From contig NZ_KB905899.1 in assembly GCF_000381085.1 (NCBI RefSeq), forward strand, positions 124,001 to 188,000: DNA of 64,000 bases. Direction: 5' to 3'. The notes beneath the pieces are model-generated. The model searched no databases. It worked only from the letters and a program-made list of their open reading frames with translations, and had not been told where the DNA came from. The position numbers and the translations under genes are program-made. Within the stretch, counting starts at the first letter, position 1; the number at the start of each line of letters is the position of its first letter. The stretch comes from Thiomicrorhabdus arctica DSM 13458. Its GTDB lineage: Bacteria > Pseudomonadota > Gammaproteobacteria > Thiomicrospirales > Thiomicrospiraceae. Below, piece after piece: positions 4,495 to 61,582 of this stretch.

Positions 4495-4525
4495 AAAACC
4501 GACCAGGCCTGGTCGGTTTTTTTTT
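4495..4525 (+). terminator. Rho-independent terminator after sufS, built on the iterated palindrome
   Basis: A perfect 26-bp inverted repeat (4495-4520) is centred on ACCAGGCCTGGT and runs into nine consecutive T residues, 55 bp after the sufS stop. It shows one copy of the family palindrome working as a terminator stem. A-residues on the left arm allow weaker action on the other strand. Confidence 0.85.
4502..4513. repeat. Iterated palindrome ACCAGGCCTGGT, copy 1
   Basis: Exact copy with context CGACCAGGCCTGGTCG. It forms the core of the sufS terminator stem. Confidence 0.9.
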
Positions 4526-16337: not shown

Positions 16338-16349
16338 ACCAGGCCTGGT
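16338..16349. repeat. Iterated palindrome ACCAGGCCTGGT, copy 2
   Basis: Exact copy, context TGACCAGGCCTGGTGA, in the 227-bp divergent gap between hisC and the Nudix fusion gene. It cannot be a simple end-of-gene terminator here because both neighbours start nearby. Confidence 0.9.
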
Positions 16350-17434: not shown

Positions 17435-17446
17435 ACCAGGCCTGGT
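17435..17446. repeat. Iterated palindrome ACCAGGCCTGGT, copy 3
   Basis: Exact copy, context TGACCAGGCCTGGTTA, between the convergent Nudix fusion gene and coaE. No long T run follows. Confidence 0.9.
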
Positions 17447-23971: not shown

Positions 23972-23983
23972 ACCAGGCCTGGT
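23972..23983. repeat. Iterated palindrome ACCAGGCCTGGT, copy 4
   Basis: Exact copy within a perfect 24-bp inverted repeat (23966-23989) whose outer AAAA/TTTT could act as a terminator stem for the reverse-strand rnt and for leftover + strand transcripts. A regular terminator for grxD already precedes it. Confidence 0.9.
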
Positions 23984-43520: not shown

Positions 43521-44795
43521 ATGGCAAAGCAAATAACAGCCATTCGTGGAATGAATGATATATACGGTGACGGGGTTGATGCATTCGACTACTTGGTCGC
43601 GACAGCAGAACAGACTTTAAAACAGTATGGTTATCACTCAATTCGGTTGCCGATTGTCGAGAAAACAGAGTTGTTTTCACGTTCAATCGGTGAAGTCACG
43701 GATATTGTCGAAAAAGAGATGTATACCTTTGAAGATCGCAGTGGCGGAAGCTTGGCTTTACGTCCAGAAGGCACAGCAGGTTGTGTGCGTGCCGTCATTC
43801 AAAACGGTTTGGCACACAATCAAATACAAAAGCTTTTCTACACTGGACCTATGTTTCGATATGAACGTCCACAAAAGGGCCGCTATCGTCAGTTTCACCA
43901 GTTTGGAGTTGAAGTCTTTGGTTTGGCAACCGCGGATATTGATGCAGAATTAATCGTTCTAACGGCACGTTTATGGGAAAAGTTAGGGCTAGAAAAACTT
44001 GAACTGCAAATCAACTCATTAGGCAGTCAGGAAGCTCGAGTCGACTACAGAGAAAAACTTGTGGCTTATCTGTCTGATGTTAAAGATCAGTTGGATGAAG
44101 ACAGTATAAGAAGGCTTGAGACGAATCCTTTGCGTATTTTGGACACTAAAAATCCGGATATGAAGGATATTGTCGAAGGCGCCCCAAAATTGCTTAATCA
44201 TTTAGATGAAGAATCAAATATTCATTTTGATCTGCTGAAATCACATTTAGATGATTTGGGTATAAGCTATGTCGTCAATCCTAACTTGGTTCGCGGACTG
44301 GATTATTATAATCGAACGGTATTTGAGTGGGTGACGACTGAATTAGGTGCGCAAGGTACTGTCTGTGCCGGTGGTCGTTACGATGGTTTAGTCGAGCAAA
44401 TCGGTGGCAAACCTACACCCGCTGTCGGTTTTGCAATGGGTATTGAGCGTTTAGCGGCCTTATTGATCGATGGCGACAAGGTGCCTGCGGTGACAACGCC
44501 CGATATCTATGTTGTGCTTTTTGGCGATAATGTGGAGCGACCAGGCCTGGTCATTTCTGAAATGGTGAGAGATGCTTTACCCCATTTAAATGTTCAGATG
44601 AACTGTGGTGGTGGGAGCTTTAAAAGCCAGTTCAAAAAGGCAGATAGATCTGGCGCCAAGTACGCGATTGTTTTAGGTGAGCAGGAAATAGCTGATAAGA
44701 TCGTCGCACTTAAGCCGTTGAGAGATAACTCTGAACAACAAACGGTTGCGTGGGATAACTTAATTGGGCATTTGTCTCAATTGTTTCCAGCCTAA
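43521..44795 (+). CDS. hisS: Histidyl-tRNA synthetase
   Basis: Class II synthetase charging tRNA-His. The 424-residue product has motif 2 ([20 protein letters not shown]), [29 protein letters not shown] and motif 3 with GFAMGIERL, plus an anticodon-binding C-terminal domain. The ribosome-binding site AAGAAG is modest. ispG, commonly upstream in gammaproteobacteria, is absent. An exact copy of the iterated palindrome lies inside the anticodon-binding part. Confidence 0.97.
44540..44551. repeat. Iterated palindrome ACCAGGCCTGGT inside hisS, copy 5
   Basis: Exact copy, context CGACCAGGCCTGGTCA, read in frame as Arg-Pro-Gly-Leu-Val near residue 341. A neutral place in the protein may let the motif be kept. 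Confidence 0.85.
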
Positions 44796-52429: not shown

Positions 52430-52441
52430 ACCAGGCCTGGT
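52430..52441. repeat. Iterated palindrome ACCAGGCCTGGT, copy 6
   Basis: Exact copy inside a 26-bp perfect inverted repeat (52423-52448), between convergent genes and separate from the terminator just upstream. No T run follows, so it is not needed as a terminator. Confidence 0.92.
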
Positions 52442-55488: not shown

Positions 55489-56748
55489 CTAATGATGATT
55501 CTTGCCGATTAACGTTTTTAAATGGTCAATACGAATTTTAGCGGGTGGATGGCTATCATGATAAGCCGAAAAACTCGGGTCAGGCGTTAAGGTGCTGGCA
55601 TTATCTCGGTACATTTTCAATAAGGCAGAAATCAGATGTTCTGCACCCACATGTTTTGCGGCAAATGCATCGGCTTCAAATTCATGTTTACGGCTTTTAA
55701 GTGCACTGATTGGCCCCATGAAAAAGAACAGTGTGGGAACGGCGGTCATAAACAACAGTAGGGCAATGGCTGGTGTTTGAGAGCTCATTCCTAAACCACT
55801 GTAAAACGCGGGTAATTGAATCAACCAGCCCAGTAAGGCTAATCCTGCTAGGGTCAAGACGGTGCTTTCAATCAATTTTTGGCGAATATGACCATGTTTG
55901 AAGTGGCCTAACTCATGGGCTAAGACCGCTTCCACTTCTTCTGGGCTGAGTTTCTCTAATAAGGTATCAAAGAACACGATGCGTTTGTTTTTACCCATGC
56001 CTGTGAAGTAAGCGTTGCCATGGCCTGAACGCGATGAACCATCCATCACAAAAATGCCGTTAGATTCGAATCCGGTGCGCTCTAACAACTGGCTAATACG
56101 ATGTTTCATTGCTTCATCTTCTAAGGGTGAGAATTTATTGAAAATCGGTGCAATCCATTTTGGGTAAGCCCACATCAAAACAAACTGAAAACTCATCCAA
56201 ACTACCCAAGTATAAAACCACCAGGCCTGGTCAATATAATTCGTCATAATGCTGACTACCACCCAGATAAGCGGGATACCTAATACGATCATTAAGGCCC
56301 ACTGCTTTAACAAGTCTGTGAAGAATTTTAGCGGAGTCGTTTTATTAAACCCAAATGCAGCTTCAATTTTGAAGGTGCTTATAATCGAAAAAGGCAGATG
56401 CAATAAAGAGACAAACCATAAGGCAGAAAGTAAAAATACCACATCTCGCCAAACAGGGTCTAAGGCCGTGGTTAACCAGAGGTTATAGATGTCTTGAAAA
56501 CCTCCGCCTAATGTCATAAATAACAAGATAGCGGCATCATAAAACAATCCCAAACGACTGAGTTGTAATTTAGAACGACTGTAGTCAGCGGCCTTTTGGT
56601 GGGCTTCTAAGGTCACCACGTCACTAAATTCTTCAGGCACACTTTGGCGATGCTTCCCGATATGGAATTGATTTTTGATATTAAGCCAAACTTCAATTAA
56701 GACATTTAAGCTTAGGGCGAATAAGAATAAAGGGGTAATCCAGTTCAT
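55489..56748 (-). CDS. M48 membrane protease, Ste24/CAAX-protease type
   Basis: 419 residues with about six or seven transmembrane segments. The zinc site VLAHELGHFKHGHI is near residue 281 and ISALKSRKHEFEADAFA gives the third ligand (Glu). The overall layout fits the Ste24p/CAAX prenyl protease 1 form of M48, larger than HtpX. In bacteria the substrates are unclear; quality control of membrane proteins is the usual proposal. An exact iterated palindrome is embedded in the region encoding a loop and transmembrane segment (about residue 175). Confidence 0.92.
   Translation of the reverse strand: MNWITPLFLFALSLNVLIEVWLNIKNQFHIGKHRQSVPEEFSDVVTLEAHQKAADYSRSKLQLSRLGLFYDAAILLFMTLGGGFQDIYNLWLTTALDPVWRDVVFLLSALWFVSLLHLPFSIISTFKIEAAFGFNKTTPLKFFTDLLKQWALMIVLGIPLIWVVVSIMTNYIDQAWWFYTWVVWMSFQFVLMWAYPKWIAPIFNKFSPLEDEAMKHRISQLLERTGFESNGIFVMDGSSRSGHGNAYFTGMGKNKRIVFFDTLLEKLSPEEVEAVLAHELGHFKHGHIRQKLIESTVLTLAGLALLGWLIQLPAFYSGLGMSSQTPAIALLLFMTAVPTLFFFMGPISALKSRKHEFEADAFAAKHVGAEHLISALLKMYRDNASTLTPDPSFSAYHDSHPPAKIRIDHLKTLIGKNHH
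56220..56231. repeat. Iterated palindrome ACCAGGCCTGGT inside the Ste24-type gene, copy 7
   Basis: Exact copy, context CCACCAGGCCTGGTCA. On the coding (reverse) strand it is read as Asp-Gln-Ala-Trp, the same frame and peptide as the copy in the asnO-like gene. Confidence 0.88.
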
Positions 56749-60087: not shown

Positions 60088-61161
<1,074 letters not shown>

Positions 61162-61163
61162 TT

Positions 61164-61268
61164 TTTTAGCGGCTTGTTTTGCCCAGCTCTGCGTTGGTTC
61201 CTGGCTCGTTTAGTCATCCTAAACTTCACCAGAAACCGCCTTGATCTGAACAAAAACGCTCGCTAAAA
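61164..61268 (+). other. Long imperfect hairpin directly after ilvC
   Basis: The stretch folds back on itself over about 50 bases per arm. The left end TTTTAGCG is the exact reverse complement of the right end CGCTAAAA, and further blocks (for example TTGTTTTG with CAAAAA and GTTTAG with CTAAAC) pair in order, with mismatches. It looks like a degenerate mobile inverted-repeat element or a structured 3' RNA. It overlaps the first copy of the duplicated terminator unit. Confidence 0.55.
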
Positions 61269-61278
61269 TAGTTTGATT

Positions 61279-61314
61279 GAAAACCCGCATTCTATTTGAG
61301 GTGCGGGTTTTTTA
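61279..61314 (+). terminator. First terminator after ilvC
   Basis: AAACCCGC (61281-61288) pairs with GCGGGTTT (61303-61310), then a T run. This is probably the main end of the ilvC transcript. Confidence 0.8.
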
Positions 61315-61328
61315 TTGTCTGAAATTTG

Positions 61329-61340
61329 ACCAGGCCTGGT
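61329..61340. repeat. Iterated palindrome ACCAGGCCTGGT, copy 8
   Basis: Exact copy, context TGACCAGGCCTGGTAG, downstream of the first ilvC terminator and in the first duplicated unit. Confidence 0.9.
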
Positions 61341-61398
61341 AGGGTTTTTTGCCAATCTCTGTGGTGCTGATTAAAAGGCTCGCTAAATGGTTTTATTG

Positions 61399-61432
61399 AA
61401 AACCCGCATTCTCTTTGAGGTGTGGGTTTTTT
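61399..61432 (+). terminator. Second terminator after ilvC
   Basis: A duplicate of the first terminator with the stem kept by a G-U pair and a T run. Confidence 0.75.
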
Positions 61433-61462
61433 ATTGCCTTAAATTTAGGGAACGTGAGTTTG

Positions 61463-61474
61463 ACCAGGCCTGGT
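61463..61474. repeat. Iterated palindrome ACCAGGCCTGGT, copy 9
   Basis: Exact copy inside a 20-bp perfect inverted repeat (61459-61478), context TGACCAGGCCTGGTCA, between convergent ilvC and the methyltransferase gene. Confidence 0.92.
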
Positions 61475-61582
61475 CAAATTCATATTTGGGTATTTGAGAG
61501 TTGCGATAGGAACTGTTTTAGACGTCAATTCAAGCAAAATGGCCAAAGATTGGCCATTTAAGAAGGCGGTGTGCGAGGATTG

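Follow-up and report, generated by a model that had tools for sequence, protein, structure and literature searches.

Palindromic sites for dimeric proteins such as SlmA, Noc and MatP number far fewer than hundreds, and to our knowledge none of the known DNA uptake sequences is palindromic. The HIP1 of cyanobacteria, as described in PMC4390886, is an iterated GC-rich palindrome whose mismatches are mostly at outer positions and which has other palindromes as counterparts in related genomes. DNA uptake sequences (DUS and USS) are known only in Neisseriaceae and Pasteurellaceae according to PMC12616744, which also states that the USS is non-palindromic and has an AT-rich flank. PMC1852404 gives generally at least 1,000 USS copies per genome and describes the recruitment of uptake sequences as terminators, and PMC2397512 puts the share of aligned DUS that are exact in all genomes at 71%.

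Here we describe a palindrome, ACCAGGCCTGGT, found in a 64,000-nt stretch of the Thiomicrorhabdus arctica genome (the window) and throughout much of the family to which this species belongs. It resembles DUS and USS, as their traits are described in PMC2397512, PMC1852404 and PMC12616744, in its hundreds of short exact copies, its fixed inner core with dialects, its presence in terminators, its conservation in place and, for USS, its AT-rich flank. It differs from both in being symmetric, in belonging to a different family of Gammaproteobacteria and in the lack of a ComP_DUS match, and from USS in number, the nine main Thiomicrorhabdus carriers having 197–718 exact copies, as against the figure of PMC1852404 cited above. 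By analogy, we propose that the palindrome may work like a DNA uptake sequence under an uptake-like drive, a reading to which we assign a probability of roughly 0.45.

The tandem array downstream of ilvC

An open frame of 338 aa (60145..61161, + strand), which by recognition we take to be ilvC, has full-length matches of 85–100% identity in 31 of 32 genomes of the genus; G002 has a distant 33% match only. The gap that follows (61162-61582) separates two convergent open frames. As an earlier note had it, this interval holds two units, each combining a terminator with an exact ACCAGGCCTGGT, at 61329 and at 61463 of the window. The first unit was thought to start at 61253; it actually begins at the ilvC stop codon and covers 61159..61340 (+ strand, by unit alignment over eight genomes). 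Its parts are the stop codon, a long imperfect hairpin of ~108 nt (61163..61270, + strand; RNA fold −32.5 kcal/mol, z −4.3), intrinsic terminator 1 (61279..61312, + strand) and palindrome copy 1 (61329..61340; here and below, palindrome copies are given without strand). The match of copy 1 is exact, and its flanks do not extend the palindrome (−6.1 kcal/mol, z −0.1). Unit 2 (61341..61474, + strand) lacks most of the long hairpin and measures 134 nt, compared with 181–203 nt in 21 other aligned units. It contains terminator 2 (61398..61431, + strand) and palindrome copy 2 (exact core 61463-61474), which a symmetric extension turns into a 13-bp stem with a GGCC loop (61454..61483; −17.0 kcal/mol, z −4.9).

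Each terminator precedes its own palindrome as a separate element. Both fold strongly (−17.7 and −17.0 kcal/mol), with 0 of 200 shuffles equalling either, and a consensus terminator scan lists terminator 1 and not terminator 2. The observation that the second stem is preserved through a G-U pair holds: it reads ACCCGCA/TGTGGGT, where the first, with G-C, reads ACCCGCA/TGCGGGT. The previously reported spacing of about 120 bp applies to repeat copies and not to the palindromes, which are 134 bp apart. Specifically, a 62-nt stretch at 61266-61327 recurs with 90% identity at 61385-61446, a spacing of 119, and a 15-nt repeat (61253-61267 and 61373-61387), spaced by 120, lengthens both copies leftward. 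An Rfam search of the array region returned no family at the gathering threshold, the best of three matches with E up to 1 scoring 23.6 bits against 56.

The DNA 3' of ilvC in relatives of the genus is a tandem array of 181–203-bp units, each of which combines the palindrome and a terminator with an imperfect hairpin of ~105 nt. There is one unit in G010, two in this genome (G000) and in G007, three in G042, G015 and G009, and four in G022 and G008, the last with another palindrome form in its units. Where one unit or two had been envisaged for relatives, copy number thus ranges from one to four, and the same two copies are not found everywhere. Units are more alike within genomes (mean identity 0.85, 23 pairs) than between them (0.72, 208 pairs), and within-genome identity reaches 0.95–0.98 in G042 and among units 1–3 of G022; the copies have therefore been duplicated or homogenised locally. 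Together with the variable copy number, this upholds the proposal of a local tandem duplication of hairpin, terminator and palindrome. The description of that duplication as recent suits only a part. The two terminators of this genome are 95% identical to each other, and neither exceeds 82% identity with a terminator of G007, the sister genome, so that the word is fair for them. Over the whole unit, unit 1 has an identity of 0.88 to unit 1 of G007 and of 0.73 to its own unit 2, and the pair as a whole therefore need not be recent. The palindrome has decayed within arrays in units 1–3 of G022, unit 1 of G007 and units 1 and 3 of G009. The interval after ilvC is the tail end of a locally duplicating hairpin-terminator-palindrome array.

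Elsewhere in the genus, the 1500 bp searched after ilvC in G016 contain several hairpins and a two-mismatch copy of the palindrome at 602 bp but no exact one, and further members have a hairpin without the palindrome, or neither. Many species have the imperfect ~105-nt hairpin after ilvC (L025, L029, L033, L034, L036), palindrome-free ones included. Judged by eye, its arms differ among species with pairing seemingly kept, and L034 apparently has a second hairpin. In G019 (L024), exact palindromes at 2615 and 2647, 32 bp apart, follow ilvC without an array unit.

Numbers, placement and conservation of the palindrome

The genome contains 333 exact copies of ACCAGGCCTGGT and none of the reversed control. 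Allowing up to two mismatches, the window has 15 copies where 1.46 are expected, nine of them exact. A 464-kb sample (the window plus 20 stretches of the same genome) yielded 67 exact copies, 28 with one mismatch and 23 with two, compared with ~0.03 exact and ~1 one-mismatch copy expected by arithmetic, and copies are present in 19 of the 20 stretches. The deviating base lies at the two outermost positions of either side in 20 of the 28 one-mismatch copies. The consensus of the signal is AAAnYGACCAGGCCTGGTCRnTTT.

Besides the pair at ilvC, the window has palindrome copies in a tandem gap within a terminator-like hairpin (4502..4513, from pattern match and fold), in a divergent gap (16338..16349) that has a site in all six syntenic carriers, and in convergent gaps at 17435..17446 (pattern match), 23972..23983 (site in 7 of 7 carriers) and 52430..52441 (5 of 7). 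Two more are in genes. At 44540..44551 the codon position is exact in G015, G009, G022, G042, G016, G019 and G040 and has four mismatches in G003; at 56220..56231 it is exact in five of the six other main carriers, with one mismatch in G009, G003 and G040. When genes are taken as simple, uncurated open frames of at least 90 aa, convergent gaps (12.0 kb) contain 15 of the 67 exact copies of the sample, tandem gaps (27.8 kb) 16 and divergent gaps (12.8 kb) 2; another 30 are in coding DNA (~404 kb, 87% of the total), and 4 are unclassified. The palindrome prefers gene 3' ends and is rare in divergent gaps. Coding copies are distributed 4/13/13 over the reading frames.

The flanks of the copies behave differently in the two settings. 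Around 37 intergenic copies of this genome they pair over 2.41 bp on average versus 0.93 (sd 0.19) when shuffled, a value matched in 0 of 2000 shuffles; around 30 coding copies the figures are 0.93 and 0.74, with 308 of 2000 shuffles as high. Pooled over seven genomes, pairing is 2.52 versus 0.60 for intergenic and 0.71 versus 0.49 for coding copies. At 17 of the 37 intergenic and 1 of the 30 coding copies (37/99 and 11/107 in the pooled set), the stem reaches 6 bp or more and a T-rich tail is present. Because intergenic flanks pair above shuffled ones and provide such stems and tails, intergenic palindromes look to have been co-opted as terminator hairpins.

The earlier note had taken the ilvC pair as a snapshot of how the palindrome might spread, moved within a larger unit, and this is where we part from it. 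When 186 bp of unit 1 served as query against the genome, 12 matches resulted (the best 40 of 278 candidates having been scored), only two of them longer than 57 bp, and both of these are at ilvC; among those candidates the suggested hunt for further copies of the unit thus found none beyond ilvC, against 333 palindromes. What the flanks of palindrome copies share is a short, symmetric preference for AAAnYG ahead of the core and CRnTTT behind it, and no long flank in common was found in the 464-kb sample. Coding copies differ from the sequences of relatives by substitution, with few gaps, which already contradicts a mobile unit for these copies. The restriction of the unit to ilvC, the short flanks and the mostly gapless coding alignments effectively rule out unit-borne spread, and despite the local tandem duplication at ilvC we consider it highly improbable that a mobile or duplicating unit accounts for the palindrome's spread. 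REP/BIME and MITE-like repeats are likewise intergenic, lie at 3' ends and form hairpins, a likeness that suits the long hairpin of the array. In contrast to such repeats, the palindrome also occurs in genes without insertion, has no longer shared unit and does not interrupt orthologous sequence. Local duplication of the array and genome-wide accumulation of the palindrome are very probably separate processes.

Conservation in place was assessed by comparing the window with ~100-kb, largely syntenic stretches around ilvC of eight relatives, nine regions in all. These contain 80 coding copies, 77 with orthologs, at 21 distinct positions. The resulting 406 comparisons onto seven main carriers, which are non-independent (21 positions) and conditioned on the presence of the site in one genome, comprise 281 exact matches and 60 with one mismatch; gaps fall inside the site in 12 and within 15 nt in 70. 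At third codon positions, identity among carriers is 0.888 within the core (n=1566), dropping to 0.528 over the six bases next to it on each side and to 0.435 in far flanks. Under the same conditioning, G003 and G040 together give 0.518 in the core and 0.368 in far flanks, with 7 exact matches, all at one single G040 position, and 10 gaps in 150 comparisons. In the 77 comparisons with G003 alone there are 0 exact matches, 10 single-mismatch ones and 3 gaps. G040 has 16 exact yet 310 relaxed-motif copies, so within this low set only G003 is truly without the palindrome.

Since coding copies occupy the same codon positions and gaps are rare, the alignments indicate that coding palindromes are strongly kept in place and change by substitution rather than insertion. 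At the conserved coding positions, G005 has an ortholog for 5 of 21, of which one retains ACCAGGCCTGGT, one reads AACAGGCCTGGT and three have further changes; G040 retains CAGGCCTG in 7 of 20 aligned. Synteny extends over five or more main carriers for 63 gaps; of these, 16 have a site in some genome, eight of them in one genome only and five in at least four. Intergenic placement turns over more than coding placement.

Distribution in the family and dialects

Exact ACCAGGCCTGGT ranges from 0 to 718 copies per genome in the genus; the nine main Thiomicrorhabdus carriers have one copy per ~3.5–9 kb, and each of 15 genomes from other families of the class has 0 or 1. The relaxed form ANCAGGCCTGNT was counted in 62 genomes of the order, all of one family. 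It is present at 109–844 copies in 32 of them and at 0–6 in 28; the remaining two, G004 with 21 and G021 with 24, may hold decaying remnants. Carriers comprise 15 of 32 genomes in g1 (Thiomicrorhabdus), 7 of 11 in g18 (Hydrogenovibrio), 9 of 9 in g21 and 1 of 1 in g22, and 0 of 9 in g17, g19 and g20. On a single-gene, midpoint-rooted ilvC tree of 30 of the 32 genus members, carriers descend from either branch at the root, and non-carriers are scattered over three or more places. Given this scatter, the palindrome has likely been lost repeatedly in the genus.

De novo counts of palindromes, made on samples of 20–464 kb per genome, reveal symmetric variants. ACCAGGCCTGGT leads in the main carriers, AGCAGGCCTGCT in G008 (13 in 80 kb) and AACAGGCCTGTT in G005 and G018 (6 and 3 in 80 kb each); G040 and G067 have mixtures, the samples of G020 and G053 no repeated palindrome, and that of G003 none of the ACCAGGCCTGGT kind. 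Across dialects CAGGCCTG is constant, and the next base on either side is C/G, G/C or A/T by species (ACC, AGC, AAC). An A-rich stretch at −6 to −8 and a pyrimidine at −4, counted from CAGGCCTG, are common to G040, G008, G005 and G018. The most divergent form belongs to G024, which has 1025 copies of ACCGGCCGGT where the remaining 61 genomes have 0–15. All dialect forms contain the central GGCC, and the G024 form has nothing else in common with the others. The ilvC tree places G024 with non-carriers, at modest support. A 60-kb sample of this genome has 22 ACCGGCCGGT sites, 11 of them coding, and of the ortholog alignments at such sites 12 are gapless (mean 5.3–6.4 mismatches) and 5 have gaps.

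In two carriers we also looked at second contigs, probably second replicons. Copies are thinner there than on the main contig, both in G019 (2 in 40 kb versus 31 in 100 kb, or 5.0 versus 31.0 per 100 kb) and in G016 (14 in 120 kb versus 44 in 180 kb, or 11.7 versus 24.4 per 100 kb). Any drive or selection acting on the chromosome would permit such a difference.

What might keep the palindrome in place

If the palindrome works like an uptake sequence, it would be one DNA-level signal at hundreds of sites, held at fixed places by drive or selection and spanning Thiomicrorhabdus, Hydrogenovibrio and two further genera of the family in species-specific symmetric dialects. A putative surface DNA receptor would prefer motif-bearing DNA, and incoming homologous DNA with the motif would replace motif-free alleles. 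Copies would build up in permissive places, foremost gene 3' ends, and would decay once a lineage loses or alters the preference; intergenic copies could be co-opted as terminator hairpins. Several traits of uptake sequences are found here, namely strong over-representation relative to the reversed control (333 versus 0), dialects around a fixed inner core, conservation without insertion in permissive parts of shared genes (the 21 coding positions) and, by sequence, use in terminators (17 of 37 intergenic copies). The known receptor ComP is not among them: ComP_DUS (PF16732) was above cut-off in 0 of 32 genus genomes, with one weak match in a non-carrier. As this receptor is that of Neisseriaceae, its absence bears on membership there only. 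ComEC is present in 28 of the 32, including all nine with at least 197 exact copies, and also in most palindrome-free genomes. A search for GspH/FimT pilins matched 3 of 62 genomes, all palindrome-free and none a carrier, and is too weak to use. Other observations also count against the uptake reading: second contigs hold sites too, and half of the site-bearing gaps (8/16) have the site in one genome only.

In-place conservation would follow equally from selection on a binding site, and each copy could be kept as the target of a chromosome-organising or nucleoid protein that sits as a dimer on the 24-bp palindrome, in the manner of SlmA, Noc or MatP. The perfect symmetry, unlike anything in known uptake sequences, is the best argument for such a dimer. 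Coding sites that show the flank preference without hairpin pairing, the conservation in place and the presence of copies in nearly all sampled stretches (19/20) also fit. Sites of this kind would hardly be expected to favour 3' ends so strongly, to be near-absent from whole lineages or to give way to a different palindrome, as in G024, and hundreds of sites, many conserved individually, far exceed the number known for these proteins. We regard this explanation as unlikely. A stereotyped intrinsic terminator working in both directions (stem AAAnYGACCA, loop GGCC) would account for the intergenic flanks, which pair far above shuffled ones and often form a stem with a T-rich tail. Such a terminator fits poorly with the 30 of 67 sampled copies that lie in genes, among which terminator-like features are rare and the flank preference is retained without pairing, and with the separate terminators ahead of both ilvC palindromes. 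Because coding copies are conserved, termination is disfavoured as the whole story, and we hold it to be quite improbable.

Only slightly more credible, and still improbable, is a HIP-like palindrome that an orphan DNA methyltransferase, together with biased mismatch repair, would generate and maintain. The palindrome is GC-rich, highly iterated and has alternates in other species, comparable with HIP1 as described in PMC4390886, and the outer location of most single mismatches (20/28) agrees with this. C5 methylases (PF00145) match in 16 of 32 genus genomes, the carriers G019, G009, G042 and G007 included, and N4/N6 methylases (PF01555) in 9 of 32. Neither family has a match in the carriers G000, G015, G010 (86% complete) and G022, and PF01555 in others also; for these two families, the ones covered, no palindrome-specific methyltransferase of the carriers emerges. 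The four carriers without matches count against a HIP-type methylase of either family, and a C5 or N4/N6 methylase as keeper is unsupported. Moreover, the palindrome spans 12–24 bp where those of the HIP1 type mostly span 6–8, and it is sparser, at one copy per ~3.5–9 kb versus about one per kb.

We prefer the uptake reading to HIP1 or mobile repeats because the core with dialects, the 3'-end bias, the in-place conservation, the change by substitution, the terminator co-option and the A-rich flanks fit DUS and USS better. More tentatively, and at a somewhat lower probability, the palindrome could represent a family of self-recognition uptake sequences independent of the two known ones, the third of its kind and the first that is palindromic, in Thiomicrorhabdus, Hydrogenovibrio and two further genera, with symmetric dialect switches (G024, for instance, has 1025 ACCGGCCGGT copies in its place) and several losses independent of one another. 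It would then be an independent case of a kin-DNA uptake motif, known so far from only two families according to PMC12616744. Free-living sulfur oxidisers with the motif, without it and with another would offer natural experiments on origin and on selfish versus useful signals. If uptake is not involved, a 12-bp signal at hundreds of fixed sites still requires a keeper protein. ACCAGGCCTGGT was not found in the open-access papers searched, and the matches listed for CCAGGCCTGG concern other subjects by their titles. With subscription journals and preprints outside its scope, the search found no report tying these genera to uptake, competence or the palindrome, as judged by titles and the opening of abstracts.

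Other iterated palindromes also occur in the family. G016 has a second one, AATAGCTAGCTATT, found 15 times in 180 kb of its main contig and seven times in 120 kb of its second contig, and this sequence is absent from the top palindromes of the other samples. In G067, ACATCGATGT occurs five times in 40 kb, alongside copies of AGCAGGCCTGCT.
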